A stretch of DNA of 64,000 nucleotides from Povalibacter uvarum (GTDB lineage: Bacteria; Pseudomonadota; Gammaproteobacteria; Steroidobacterales; Steroidobacteraceae), in the NCBI RefSeq assembly GCF_014202975.1, contig NZ_JACHHZ010000002.1:186001-250000 (forward strand), in the 5' to 3' direction. Under the pieces are notes generated by a model that worked only from the letters and a program-made list of their open reading frames with translations, did not search any database and was not told the DNA's origin. Of this stretch, positions 33,646 through 37,263 are shown piece after piece. A program made the translations under genes and the position numbers. Each line of letters begins with the position of its first letter. Position 1 is the stretch's first letter.

Positions 33646-33665
33646 CAGTCGGTGGCACGACGACT

Positions 33666-33734
33666 GTCATCCCCGCGAAGGCGGGGATCCATCTGGTCCA
33701 ACGGCATGGATTCCCGCTTTCGCGGGAATGACGA
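33666..33734. repeat. Paired REP-like palindromes, copy 1
   Basis: Two adjacent hairpins in inverted orientation: GTCATCCCCGCGAAGGCGGG followed, after about 20 bp, by TTCCCGCTTTCGCGGGAATG. The whole is itself an inverted repeat bounded by GTCAT/ATGAC. Two related copies occur at 46406 and 50424. It sits in the gap between convergent genes. Confidence 0.85.
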
Positions 33735-33761
33735 CTGCGGTTCGCGGGGCCGACGAGTCGA

Positions 33762-34160
33762 TCAGTCCTCTTTCCGCTTCTCATCGTAGTGAATGACGGG
33801 CTGTCCGCTCGTGACAGCCATTTCACCTTCGATCACCGCGCCCTGGGCGATTGCGATGCTGCGCGCTGTGACAGCGCCGTGGATGCGCGCGGTTTTGCGG
33901 ATCTCCAGTTTCTCGCTGGCGATGATCTCGCCGTGCCATTCCCCTGCGACGACGACATTGGCCGCCTGCAGTCGTCCTTCCCACCGTCCGCCATCGGACA
34001 GCGTGACAGCGCCGCGCACCTTGCTGTCGCCGATGACGATGCCGCCGACGATCAGGTCGCCTTCGCAGTTCAGGTTGCCGGTCAGTGTCGTTCCGGCACC
34101 GATGAACGTCGGACTGCTCGCGATCTTGTCGGTCGCGCGGCGACGAAGGTTGTCGGCCAT
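33762..34160 (-). CDS. Bactofilin
   Basis: Bactofilin (DUF583) of 132 residues, a polymer-forming cytoskeletal protein that organises cell-shape or envelope factors. The beta-helix repeats are visible (TLTGNLNCEGDLIVGGIVIG, GEWHGEIIASEKLEI, ARIHGAVTARSIAIAQGAVI), flanked by short disordered ends. It has no peptidase neighbour of the LmdC/M23 type often seen beside bactofilins. The upstream region shared with the sigma-54 promoter contains an inverted repeat (34196-34232) close to its start. Confidence 0.93.
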   Translation of the reverse strand: MADNLRRRATDKIASSPTFIGAGTTLTGNLNCEGDLIVGGIVIGDSKVRGAVTLSDGGRWEGRLQAANVVVAGEWHGEIIASEKLEIRKTARIHGAVTARSIAIAQGAVIEGEMAVTSGQPVIHYDEKRKED

Positions 34161-34195: not shown

Positions 34196-34232
34196 CTGGC
34201 GATGTTTTGTTGTGTACCAGAAACGTCGCCAG
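34196..34232. promoter_or_regulatory. Inverted repeat upstream of bactofilin and the sigma-54 promoter
   Basis: CTGGCGA (34196-34202) and TCGCCAG (34226-34232) are perfect 7-bp arms 23 bp apart. The site is 36 bp before the bactofilin start and about 140-177 bp before the predicted sigma-54 start, a usual distance for an enhancer-binding protein. Confidence 0.4.
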
Positions 34233-34274: not shown

Positions 34275-34291
34275 GTGACAATCCTCGTCAC
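34275..34291. promoter_or_regulatory. GTGAC-N7-GTCAC palindrome upstream of the sigma-54 promoter
   Basis: GTGAC (34275-34279) and GTCAC (34287-34291) lie about 82-98 bp before the predicted sigma-54 transcription start, where activator sites are usually found. Confidence 0.35.
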
Positions 34292-34346
34292 CGCGGCCCA
34301 AGGGCTCCGCGTGGGTAAATCACTGATTGGCTTGGCCCTGAACCCA

Positions 34347-34362
34347 TGGCACATGCCTTGCA
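34347..34362 (+). promoter_or_regulatory. Near-consensus sigma-54 (RpoN) promoter
   Basis: TGGCACATGCCTTGCA fits the -24/-12 consensus TGGCAC-N5-TTGCA, with GG and GC separated by exactly 10 bp. The predicted start is near 34373. It is the only such site I found in the window. Confidence 0.75.
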
Positions 34363-34372
34363 ATCATCGAGG

Positions 34373-34461
34373 CGTGCGCTGAACCGCCTTGCTCTTCCAA
34401 TGAAGGCAACAGGTTCGCATTCAACGCCGCCAGCGTCTTCCCCGCGGGCGGCGTTTTTTTT
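34373..34461 (+). ncRNA. Candidate sigma-54-dependent small RNA
   Basis: From the predicted sigma-54 start to the T8 run of the terminator is about 89 nt, with no convincing coding frame in it. The region upstream of the terminator is largely unpaired (CUUGCUCUUCCAAUGAAGG-like), available for base-pairing. Alternatively this is the leader of the M16 peptidase operon, which starts 52 bp after the terminator, and the terminator is an attenuator. Nothing in the sequence decides between them. Confidence 0.5.
34423..34461 (+). terminator. Intrinsic terminator upstream of the M16 peptidase genes
   Basis: AACGCCGCC (34423-34431) pairs perfectly with GGCGGCGTT (34447-34455) around a 15-nt loop, running into eight T residues. 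It lies between the sigma-54 promoter and the peptidase ATG on the same strand. Confidence 0.88.
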
Positions 34462-34513
34462 GCCCGCCACTGACGCAGCTATGATGCAGCCTTCATCGTT
34501 ACCGGGGCTTCCC

Positions 34514-35836
34514 ATGCGTCGTCTGTCGCTCCTGTTGCTATTGCTGACATCGGTCGCGCACGCCCAGATCCCGGGGGCCGAGCGGATAGAGACGGTCACG
34601 CTCGGCAACGGCATGACGATCATCGTCTGGCCCGATCCCGACATTCCCAATGTGGCCCTGTACAACTGGGTGAAGGTCGGCAGCCGCAACGAAGTGCCCG
34701 GAATCACGGGTCTGGCGCACTTCTTCGAACACATGATGTTCAACGGCACCAGCACGCGCCCGCCCGGCAGTTTCGACAAGGAGCTCGAAGCGAACGGCGC
34801 GAACAACAACGCGTCCACGTCGAACGATGTGACGATCTACAAGGACTGGTTTCCGCGTGATGCCCTCGAGCTCGTGTTCGAGCTCGAGGCCGACCGGCTG
34901 CGCAACCTCGCCTTCGATCCGAAGGTCATCGAAAGCGAACGAGGTGTCGTCTACTCGGAGCGGCGACTGGGAGTGGACGACAGCAATGCCGGCCGTCTCA
35001 TGGAACAGGTGCAGGCGACGGCGTACGTCGCGCATCCATACTCGATTCCCACTATCGGCTGGCCCTCGGATATCGAAGGCTGGACGGTCGACGATCTGAA
35101 GAAATTCTTCGCCACGCACTACGCGCCGAACAACTGCACGATGATCCTCGTCGGCGACGTCGATCCGAAAAAGGTGATCGCGCTGGCCCGCAAATACTTC
35201 GAACCGATTCCGCGCCAGGCGCCGCCCGAGCCGATTCGCACGAAGGAGCCCGAACAGCAAGGCGAGCGACGCGTGCTGGTCGAGGCTGACGCACAGACGC
35301 CGCTGCTGCAATTCGCGTATCACAGCATCGCGGGTTCCGATCCGCGCCTGCCCGCACTCGAACTGCTCCTGCGCATTCTCGTTGACGGCGATGCATCGCG
35401 TCTGCACCGCGCGCTCGTGGAAGAGCAGAAGGTCGCCATTTCGGCCGACGGCTATCTGGAAGCGGGTTTCGATCCCGGCCTGACGTGGCTGTTCCTGTCA
35501 CTGCCCTCCAATGGCGATGTCGCCCAGGCGGAGAAGGCGCTCGACGCGGAGATCGATCGCATTCGCAAGGACGGTGTCACTGCTGCGGAGCTGAATCGCG
35601 CCCGCAGCCAAGTCATCGCCGATTTCTGGCGCGCGCTCGCGACTATCGATGGCAAGGCTGACCAGCTCGGTACTTATGCCGTGATGCGCGGCGGCTATCA
35701 GAAGCTGTTCGAAGCCCCTCGTGCGTACGAACAAGTCAGTCTCGAGGATGTGAAGAAGCTGGCCGCGGAGATTCTGCGACCAAGCAATCGAACAGTCGGC
35801 TTGCTGCGCGCAGCGACGAACGAGGAGAACAAGTGA
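34514..35836 (+). CDS. M16 family zinc metallopeptidase (active subunit)
   Basis: Periplasmic M16 peptidase of 440 residues with a signal peptide (RRLSLLLLLLTSVAHAQ). The inverted zinc motif HFFEH is at 69-73, and the distal Glu lies in the ELVFELEADRLRN segment. This is the catalytic member of the two-gene M16 pair common in Proteobacteria (PqqF/L-like, processing-peptidase fold). The frame opens at 34346, but the signal peptide fixes the ATG at 34514. The stop overlaps the next gene by one base (TGATG), so the two subunits are made in equal amounts. Confidence 0.93.
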   Translation: MRRLSLLLLLLTSVAHAQIPGAERIETVTLGNGMTIIVWPDPDIPNVALYNWVKVGSRNEVPGITGLAHFFEHMMFNGTSTRPPGSFDKELEANGANNNASTSNDVTIYKDWFPRDALELVFELEADRLRNLAFDPKVIESERGVVYSERRLGVDDSNAGRLMEQVQATAYVAHPYSIPTIGWPSDIEGWTVDDLKKFFATHYAPNNCTMILVGDVDPKKVIALARKYFEPIPRQAPPEPIRTKEPEQQGERRVLVEADAQTPLLQFAYHSIAGSDPRLPALELLLRILVDGDASRLHRALVEEQKVAISADGYLEAGFDPGLTWLFLSLPSNGDVAQAEKALDAEIDRIRKDGVTAAELNRARSQVIADFWRALATIDGKADQLGTYAVMRGGYQKLFEAPRAYEQVSLEDVKKLAAEILRPSNRTVGLLRAATNEENK

Positions 35837-37263
35837 TGCGTGCCCCGCGATTCGTGAAATTGCTCGCATCGCTCGTAGCCGGAGTAACCGCGCTCATCAG
35901 CATGACGGCAGCCGCACAGTCGGCTGGCGTAAAGCTGCCGCCGTACGAACGCGTCGAATTGCGTAACGGAGCCGTCCTGCTCCTGATGGAACGCCACGAC
36001 GTACCGCTGATCGCCGTCAACGCCGTGGTTCGCGGCGGCAGCGCAGTCGATCCTCAGGACCAGGCGGGGCTGTCGGGGCTGCTCGCGAACCTGCTGGAAA
36101 AGGGCGCGGGCAAACGCGACGCGGCGACTTTCGCGGACACGCTGGCCTCCGTCGGCGGTTTGCTTTCGGCTTCGGCCGGCACGGAAGGCATCGTGATCAC
36201 CGGATCATTCCTGTCGCGCGATCAGAAGCTGATGGTCGAATTGCTCTCGGACGTTCTGCAGCGGCCGCAATTGACTGCCGCGCAGTTCGACTCGGTGCGC
36301 AACCGGCAGATCGAATTCATCCGTGCCGCGAAGGATTCCGAACTGGAGTCGCTCACTCCGCTCTACGGCAAGGCCGCGCTGTTCCCTGGTCATCCCTACG
36401 GCAAACCCGCGATCGGCAGTGAAGCCGGGCTCGCCGCGGCCACGCACGACGCACTCATGCGCCACTATCGCGATCAGTTCGGCGCCGACCGATTGATCCT
36501 TGCCGTGGTCGGCGACTTCAAAACGGGCGCGATGAAGCAGAGCCTCACGAGCGCGCTGAACGGCTGGCGGAAGGCAGGAGCAGAGCTACCCGTCATCACA
36601 GCCCCGTCGAAGGTCACCGGTCGTCGCGTGCTTCTCATCGACGCGCCCGAATCAGTGCAGTCGTATTTCTGGGCCGGCAATGTCGGCGTCGCGAGGAGCT
36701 ACCGCGATCGCGCTGCGCTCGATGTCGTGAATACGCTCTTCGGTGGGCGGTTCACGTCGATGCTGAACAGCGAGCTGCGCATTCGCACCGGCCTCACTTA
36801 CGGTGCCCGCTCGCGGTTCGACCGGTTTACTCAGCCCGGCCCCTGGCAGATGAGCTCGTACACGCAGACGAAGACCACCTTCGAGGCGATCGATCTTGCG
36901 TTCAGCGTTCTCGACCGGCTGCACAACGAGCGGATCGAACCGGCCCTGCTCGCCTCGGGCAAGACCTATGTTCAGGGTCAGTTCCCGCTCGCGCTGGAAA
37001 CGACCAACGAGTGGGCCAGCGCACTGACCGACCTCGAGTTCTACAAGCTCGACCGCGGCTACATCGACGGCTATGCAGCATCGCTGGGGGCTGTCACGTC
37101 GGATGATGCTCAGCGGATGATCCGCGAGAACTTCCCCAGCTCCGACAACGTCATGCTGGTCGTCGTCGGCCAGGCCGCGGTCCTGCGCGAAGGCCTGCGG
37201 AAGTACGGGTCTGTGACGGAGATGAAGCTGAGCGATCCGCACTTCGCTGCAGCCCGCCGCTGA
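35836..37263 (+). CDS. M16 family peptidase-like protein (non-catalytic subunit)
   Basis: Partner of the preceding peptidase, 475 residues with a signal peptide (LLASLVAGVTALISMTAAAQS). At the place of the zinc motif it reads QAGLSGLLANLLEKG, so the HxxEH ligands are missing. The C-terminal Arg/Tyr substrate motif (NSELRIRTGLTYGARS) is kept. Such pairs form heterodimers in which one subunit supplies zinc and the other supplies substrate-binding residues. Start ATG at 35836 overlaps the first gene's TGA; an in-frame GTG one codon earlier is possible. Confidence 0.92.
   Translation: MRAPRFVKLLASLVAGVTALISMTAAAQSAGVKLPPYERVELRNGAVLLLMERHDVPLIAVNAVVRGGSAVDPQDQAGLSGLLANLLEKGAGKRDAATFADTLASVGGLLSASAGTEGIVITGSFLSRDQKLMVELLSDVLQRPQLTAAQFDSVRNRQIEFIRAAKDSELESLTPLYGKAALFPGHPYGKPAIGSEAGLAAATHDALMRHYRDQFGADRLILAVVGDFKTGAMKQSLTSALNGWRKAGAELPVITAPSKVTGRRVLLIDAPESVQSYFWAGNVGVARSYRDRAALDVVNTLFGGRFTSMLNSELRIRTGLTYGARSRFDRFTQPGPWQMSSYTQTKTTFEAIDLAFSVLDRLHNERIEPALLASGKTYVQGQFPLALETTNEWASALTDLEFYKLDRGYIDGYAASLGAVTSDDAQRMIRENFPSSDNVMLVVVGQAAVLREGLRKYGSVTEMKLSDPHFAAARR

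Follow-up and report, generated by a model that had tools for sequence, protein, structure and literature searches.

A probable PilS/PilR-RpoN small RNA gene between divergent bactofilin and M16 peptidase genes in Povalibacter uvarum

The window analysed here is a stretch of 64,000 nucleotides of Povalibacter uvarum (assembly GCF_014202975.1, contig NZ_JACHHZ010000002.1, positions 186,001 to 250,000), and all coordinates are given within it. A bactofilin gene and a pair of M16 peptidase genes are transcribed divergently from a gap of 353 bases, and this gap holds a complete sigma-54 unit (34275–34461). The features of the locus are as follows.

33762–34160, minus strand: bactofilin gene, transcribed divergently and constantly found beside the RNA gene
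34275–34291, plus strand: upstream activator site (−98 to −82), palindrome GTGACAATCCTCGTCAC (GTGAC-N7-GTCAC; TGAC-N7-GTCA), putative PilR site
34316–34328, plus strand: IHF-like element TAAATCACTGATT, a candidate IHF site by its consensus
34347–34361, plus strand: sigma-54 promoter TGGCACATGCCTTGC (TGGCAC-N5-TTGC, GG-N10-GC)
34373–34461, plus strand: predicted small RNA of about 89 nt, its 5' end placed from the promoter
34374–34420, plus strand: 5' hairpin (GUGC..GAACC / GGUUC..GCAU)
34423–34461, plus strand: hairpin 2 and intrinsic terminator with U8 (T8 ending at 34461)
34436–34443, plus strand: loop of hairpin 2 with the C-rich sequence UCUUCCCC, a proposed seed
34514–35836, plus strand: M16 peptidase gene 1, a neighbour often but not always
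35833–37263, plus strand: M16 peptidase gene 2

The sigma-54 promoter with its predicted start near 34373, as well as the terminator stem from 34423 with its T8, are present as a first-pass annotation of this DNA had described them. That annotation also stated that no coding frame lies between the two, which holds for the closed ORFs, since those that start with ATG, GTG or TTG and are closed by a stop within the transcript have only 2 and 4 codons. An ORF on 34346–35836 does cross the RNA in the M16 frame; because the M16 start is at 34514 and the first residue there opens eight of the relatives' alignments, the part that crosses the RNA is most likely an N-terminal overhang of M16. Two upstream palindromes had further been proposed as enhancer sites. 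The one at 34275–34291 is conserved and is shared with pilA promoters (see below), while the other, with 7-bp arms CTGGCGA/TCGCCAG at 34196–34202 and 34226–34232, is probably outside the sigma-54 unit: it sits immediately ahead of the bactofilin start, and in a comparison by eye its arms are not conserved in G002, the closest relative. On the 3' side of the bactofilin gene, at 33660–33735, there is a short inverted repeat (TCATCCCCGCGAAGGCGGGGATCCA..ATTCCCGCTTTCGCGGGAATGACGA) that by eye is of the dispersed-repeat kind.

In the 64 kb of the window the exact −24/−12 motif occurs once, and with at most one mismatch it is found nine times against 4.84 expected. The palindrome of the activator site occurs once against 0.09 expected, and a loose terminator scan of 1.4 kb gave two hits, one of which is the terminator of the RNA itself, against 1.0 expected. 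Taken alone, the window thus offers evidence for the unit that is suggestive only; single elements could have arisen there by chance, and it is therefore conservation that decides. Given the conservation described below, the predicted sigma-54/RNA unit is far from chance.

A DNA search of 98 relatives gave matches in 14 genomes; two matching loci (L012, L014) were dropped as unrelated coding matches by eye. The fetched congeners keep the promoter, the palindrome and the terminator loop with small changes. As an independent anchor, we used the bactofilin orthologue, which was found in 13 of the 14 genomes of the genus that were searched and is missing in one that is 75% complete (G007). The promoter unit is kept in 12 of the 13 bactofilin-bearing congeners, so that the −24/−12 elements, whose conservation the first-pass annotation had named as a check, are indeed retained among close relatives. 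In eleven of the 13, the palindrome, the sigma-54 site and the C-rich terminator occur without any ORF, and in one (G012) the unit is kept together with a small ORF. In the thirteenth (G009; locus L255, in a single contig of 3.5 Mb) the promoter and the RNA are lost and bactofilin and M16 are directly adjacent. Of the 12 units found in the genus, 11 have an IHF-like element of the form YAA-N4-YTGAT between the palindrome and the −24 element, the exception being that of G013. In several congeners (L004, L005, L006, L010) a second palindrome, GTGAC-N5-GTCAC, precedes the main activator site by about 15 bases.

The M16 gene starts 53 nt past the terminator on the same strand in the window, and the RNA might accordingly be the attenuated leader of the M16 peptidase pair, with sigma-54 transcription reading into M16 past the terminator, as the first-pass annotation had proposed as an alternative. 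Within the genus every RNA locus with sequence on the M16 side then has M16, and the genus alone could therefore not discriminate an attenuator from a small RNA. For the neighbour count we used 37 distinct RNAs from 50 locus identifiers (L060 and L073 gave no unit by pattern). M16 lies within 1.5 kb in 19 of these 37 loci overall, and in 15 of the 28 (outside the genus, 8 of 21) whose downstream sequence extends for 1.5 kb or more, leaving 13 loci with room, all outside the genus, in which no M16 gene lies within 1.5 kb. In contrast, the divergent bactofilin gene is found, directly or about 1 kb away, in all 24 loci with at least 1.7 kb of upstream sequence, and in 34 of all 37, the other three having less than 1 kb upstream. 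The RNA thus stays with bactofilin and less with M16, rather than remaining upstream of M16, which makes an M16 attenuator unlikely. G009, moreover, retains M16 although the promoter and the RNA are gone, and the terminator is the best conserved part of the RNA, with changes on both sides of its pairs and its loop kept. An unsystematic look brought to notice no alternative anti-terminator pairing. We therefore consider the leader reading quite improbable, and favor a stand-alone small RNA.

To follow the RNA beyond the genus, a covariance model (R1) was built from 29 RNA cores of other genera (alignment A1), none of them from the genus of the window, and run against 396 genomes of the order, an even sample of a larger group. 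Seventy-two genomes matched, once each, and the single match in the P. uvarum genome is the present locus (34378–34462, E 1.6e-4). Within 430 nt upstream of the 72 matches, a near-consensus sigma-54 site is present in 69 and is accompanied by the palindrome in 60, whereas none of the 72 control stretches on the opposite strand (up to 445 nt) contains the elements of the sigma-54 unit. The training of R1 overlaps with the pattern search described below in 21 of the 72 matches; among the 51 matches outside the training, defined as having no exact 60-base start in common with a training sequence, 48 have the sigma-54 site, 39 also have the palindrome, and the controls have none. Twelve of the 72 matches lack the strict palindrome and three lack the promoter, one of which (G042) had only 235 nt that could be searched. 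The RNA of G013 is present at its locus although R1 missed it. In 59 aligned matches, 97.6% of the pair cells are standard and intact, and the paired cells fall to 30–54% when the pairing partners are slid along the alignment. Changes on both sides are seen in 16 of the 18 pairs, a level reached by none of 500 shuffles, and this covariation leans towards the structure because the alignment was fitted to the model. A C-rich run (at least five pyrimidines with CCC), counted anywhere in the core regardless of loop position, occurs in all 72 cores, and two or more occur in 55. Together with the GG-N10-GC promoter that directly precedes the RNA and is kept in relatives, these data make it very probable that 34373–34461 is a genuine gene encoding a short non-coding RNA, and conservation, covariation and the co-conserved promoter strongly support the view, put forward in the first-pass annotation, that it would be an RpoN-dependent small RNA of about 89 nt.

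The 89-nt RNA has a folding z-score of −4.16 and none of 200 shuffled sequences is equally stable; for three congeners the single folds gave −3.01, −1.25 (21 of 200 shuffles as stable) and −2.86, and for one RNA from another genus −7.03, in stretches that were not cut exactly at the predicted start. A consensus fold of the genus set (A2) was rejected as a misalignment and the single folds were taken instead. In many genera hairpin 1 reads GCGAACAACUUCCCCG(G)UGUUCGC and hairpin 2 has a second loop, CUUCCCC(C). In the genus of the window, the C-rich loop is found mainly in hairpin 2 and hairpin 1 lacks it in most members, and we take the 5' hairpin at 34374–34420 as the counterpart of hairpin 1 without its C-rich loop. 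The RNA ends in an intrinsic terminator and holds no ORF beyond the two short frames mentioned above, as a stand-alone small RNA would. Rfam 15 gave no match at the gathering cut-off in the window and sub-threshold matches only. Among them, ar14 (RF02344; 26.2 bits against a gathering score of 58.8) and ar7 (RF02342; 26.9 against 60) are likewise small RNAs that end in a terminator, but they are far below their gathering scores and come from a different lineage, the alphaproteobacteria, with no evidence of kinship.

To identify the activator, we scanned one genome per species from 84,980 species with a pattern consisting of the palindrome, the IHF-like element and the sigma-54 site, and classed the resulting 79 stretches. 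The pattern is followed in 31 of them by this RNA, in 11 by a small ORF, in 22 by a gene for a type IV pilin at a distance of no more than about 100 nt, and in 15 by something else; of the last, five (L055, L107, L113, L116, L122) adjoin bactofilin and/or M16 and ten are unexplained. The pilA genes preceded by palindrome, IHF-like element and sigma-54 site come from records labelled delta-, beta- and gammaproteobacteria and acidobacteria. A looser pattern applied to the 98 relatives was found at 28 places in 25 genomes, its reversed control at none; two of the places (L017, L021) look coding and were not counted as small RNAs, and a third (L022) was left unclassified. Conversely, 60 genomes were searched for pilA at the protein level and the best 30 loci were fetched, 29 of which were readable. 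A sigma-54 site precedes pilA in 25 of these 29 and is combined with the palindrome in 23, while in shuffled upstream stretches the palindrome occurs in 0.87 of the 29 on average and in 4 at most, showing that the activator site is common to the RNA and the pilA promoters. Upstream of pilA in P. uvarum itself lie a sigma-54 site, TGACA half-sites and a site of the IHF type, and the full palindrome is absent there and before the pilA of G012; single half-sites number 1.69 per pilA upstream stretch versus 0.93 in the downstream control. The genome encodes RpoN. At a distance of about 12 kb from pilA it also encodes a kinase that has the six-helix membrane domain of PilS (PF25323 6TM_PilS, E 1.9e-24) and adjoins a regulator with receiver, sigma-54 and Fis domains. 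For this regulator no NCBIfam model scored above its cut-off, and we call it PilR because of its PilS neighbour.

Since pilA genes have the same palindrome in front of them, PilS/PilR likely acts as the switch, and the RNA is probably a small RNA of PilS/PilR and RpoN. From the site common with pilA we infer that 34275–34291 is a PilR site. It differs from the hallmark given for P. aeruginosa in the available part of PMC6058289, which consists of TGT-N11-AGA and GTCT. According to the same part of that source, the pilA gene is under control of sigma-54 and PilR, as we propose here for a regulon member that is a non-coding RNA. It further reports PilS of P. aeruginosa as a sensor of pilin. A different enhancer-binding protein, such as NtrC, PrsR or an orphan, could drive the same RNA; in the genome the sigma-54 activator domain is matched 14 times, ten times strongly, and a true PrsR is among the matches (TIGR02915, 708.6 bits against a cut-off of 502.6; G000:C1:564772-565272, L136). 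Yet the palindrome and the sigma-54 site precede pilA in this order, and the full pattern does so in other groups as well, which argues against another activator. Control by PrsR was rejected on the promoter, given that motif 1 of the PEP-CTERM promoters ends in TTTACA in the accessible text of PMC1569441 and the palindrome site does not. Nitrogen control was also rejected, as inspection by eye of the ORFs listed for the remaining pattern stretches revealed no nitrogen gene. Overall, a driver other than PilR seems unlikely, and the nitrogen or stress control suggested in the first-pass annotation finds no support, the activator site being that of pilA. If PilR is the driver, a non-coding output would be added to the widespread PilS/PilR pilus switch, and the PilR site would become searchable in several phyla.

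The slot between bactofilin and M16 is not always occupied by an ORF-less RNA. In G012 it contains the palindrome, the IHF-like element, the sigma-54 site, an 82-aa ORF and a terminator with the C-rich loop. The ORF belongs to a family of small proteins of about 70–100 aa with the motif FRxGxPIxDP..GYE, apparently driven by PilR and RpoN, for which we aligned 17 of 18 sequences (alignment A3; L031:1220-1465 on the minus strand and 16 relatives). Three sequences had no Pfam or NCBIfam match, and a structural model (pLDDT 81.7, pTM 0.60) found no Foldseek match better than E 0.33 among solved structures. Full-length ORFs are present in G012, in four further genera of the same family (g6, g16, g17, g24) and in another family (f10). 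Shortened ORFs (MSTRTLTLLMPAL.. and MDRSTVTLILPNG..) lie between the promoter and the RNA hairpins in two genera (g14: L185, L187, L189-L192, L194; g10: L179, L180) and are possibly eroding or truncated relatives of the small protein. P. uvarum itself has a paralogue elsewhere (L033:1225-1464, minus strand) with a promoter of the same type at G000:C2:56543-56629, after which no C-rich terminator was found in 420 bases.

The locus thus occurs in three states, with a full ORF, a shortened ORF or none (the window and many genera), always under the same kind of promoter, and the C-rich hairpin module is present in most loci across the three. Could the window hold merely what a lost small-protein gene left behind, a promoter and a terminator with no RNA function? 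The protein of G012 in the same slot, with the same types of promoter and terminator, the shortened ORFs in other genera and the loss of the unit in G009 would fit such a relic. On the other hand, the hairpins remain paired where both sides have changed, many ORF-less genera retain the loop, and 11 congeners without the ORF retain the palindrome and the promoter, so that a relic appears very unlikely and a functional RNA is preferred. A direction from protein to RNA is the simpler reading of the locus. Tentatively, and with somewhat less than even confidence, we suggest that the pilus-regulon small RNA family originated, perhaps on several occasions, when the ORF eroded in an mRNA for a small protein that was driven by PilR and had 3' hairpins already active as a regulatory RNA. 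If so, the loci would form a natural series from mRNA to small RNA at one place, with the promoter and the terminator hairpin staying, and the birth of small RNAs would become testable by comparison. When PilS senses a shortage of pilin, new pilin would then be made together with a C-rich RNA, and the latter would retune many mRNAs.

The RNA gene is conserved, its structure is retained through covariation and its promoter unit is kept, with an activator site common to pilA; on this basis, we infer transcription, binding by PilR and IHF, and a mode of action. The interval 34373–34461 is likely a small RNA gene of the PilS/PilR-RpoN regulon that is driven by PilR and IHF and pairs with mRNAs through its C-rich loop. 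Active PilR would bind the palindrome at 34275–34291, and a DNA bend at the IHF-like element would carry it to the sigma-54 RNA polymerase at 34347–34361; a short structured RNA would then be made and stop at its own terminator. Pilin transcription would thereby be coupled to post-transcriptional control. RpoN-dependent small RNAs are known from CrcZ, a CA-rich sponge, and GlmY, which acts in the glmS circuit. The present RNA resembles them in that a sigma-54 promoter with an upstream activator site drives a stand-alone small RNA, and differs from them in its activator and its RNA modules.

The C-rich loop UCUUCCCC most likely pairs with G-rich ribosome-binding regions of mRNAs from elsewhere, and in many related genera hairpin 1 would offer a second such loop. 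This step is suggested by the anatomy of the RNA and by sX13 of Xanthomonas, a short structured RNA whose C-rich loops act on mRNAs with G-rich motifs near the start, as reported in the available part of PMC3771888. Against the pilA leaders, the window loop paired no better than against shuffled sequences (mean p 0.61; 0 of 29 with p<0.05), and thus no target among them supports the pairing step. No target was found either among bactofilin (p 0.625), M16 (p 0.110) and the small-ORF paralogue of P. uvarum (p 0.375). The likeness to sX13 consists in a short, strongly structured RNA with a C-rich loop. In the same part of PMC3771888, sX13 is described with three stem-loops (4C/4C/5C loops) beside polA, whereas the RNA here has two hairpins and a promoter of the sigma-54/PilR type and lies beside bactofilin, placing it outside sX13 as so described; the name sX13 is absent among the Rfam matches obtained, including those below threshold. 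Among the papers listed from the open-licence literature on PilS/PilR, RpoN, Steroidobacter small RNAs and C-rich small RNAs, we found no PilR-activated small RNA, which is no proof that none has been described. An antisense RNA of Synechocystis called "PilR" (PMC5924778), judging from the available part of that paper, has the name alone in common with the regulator discussed here.
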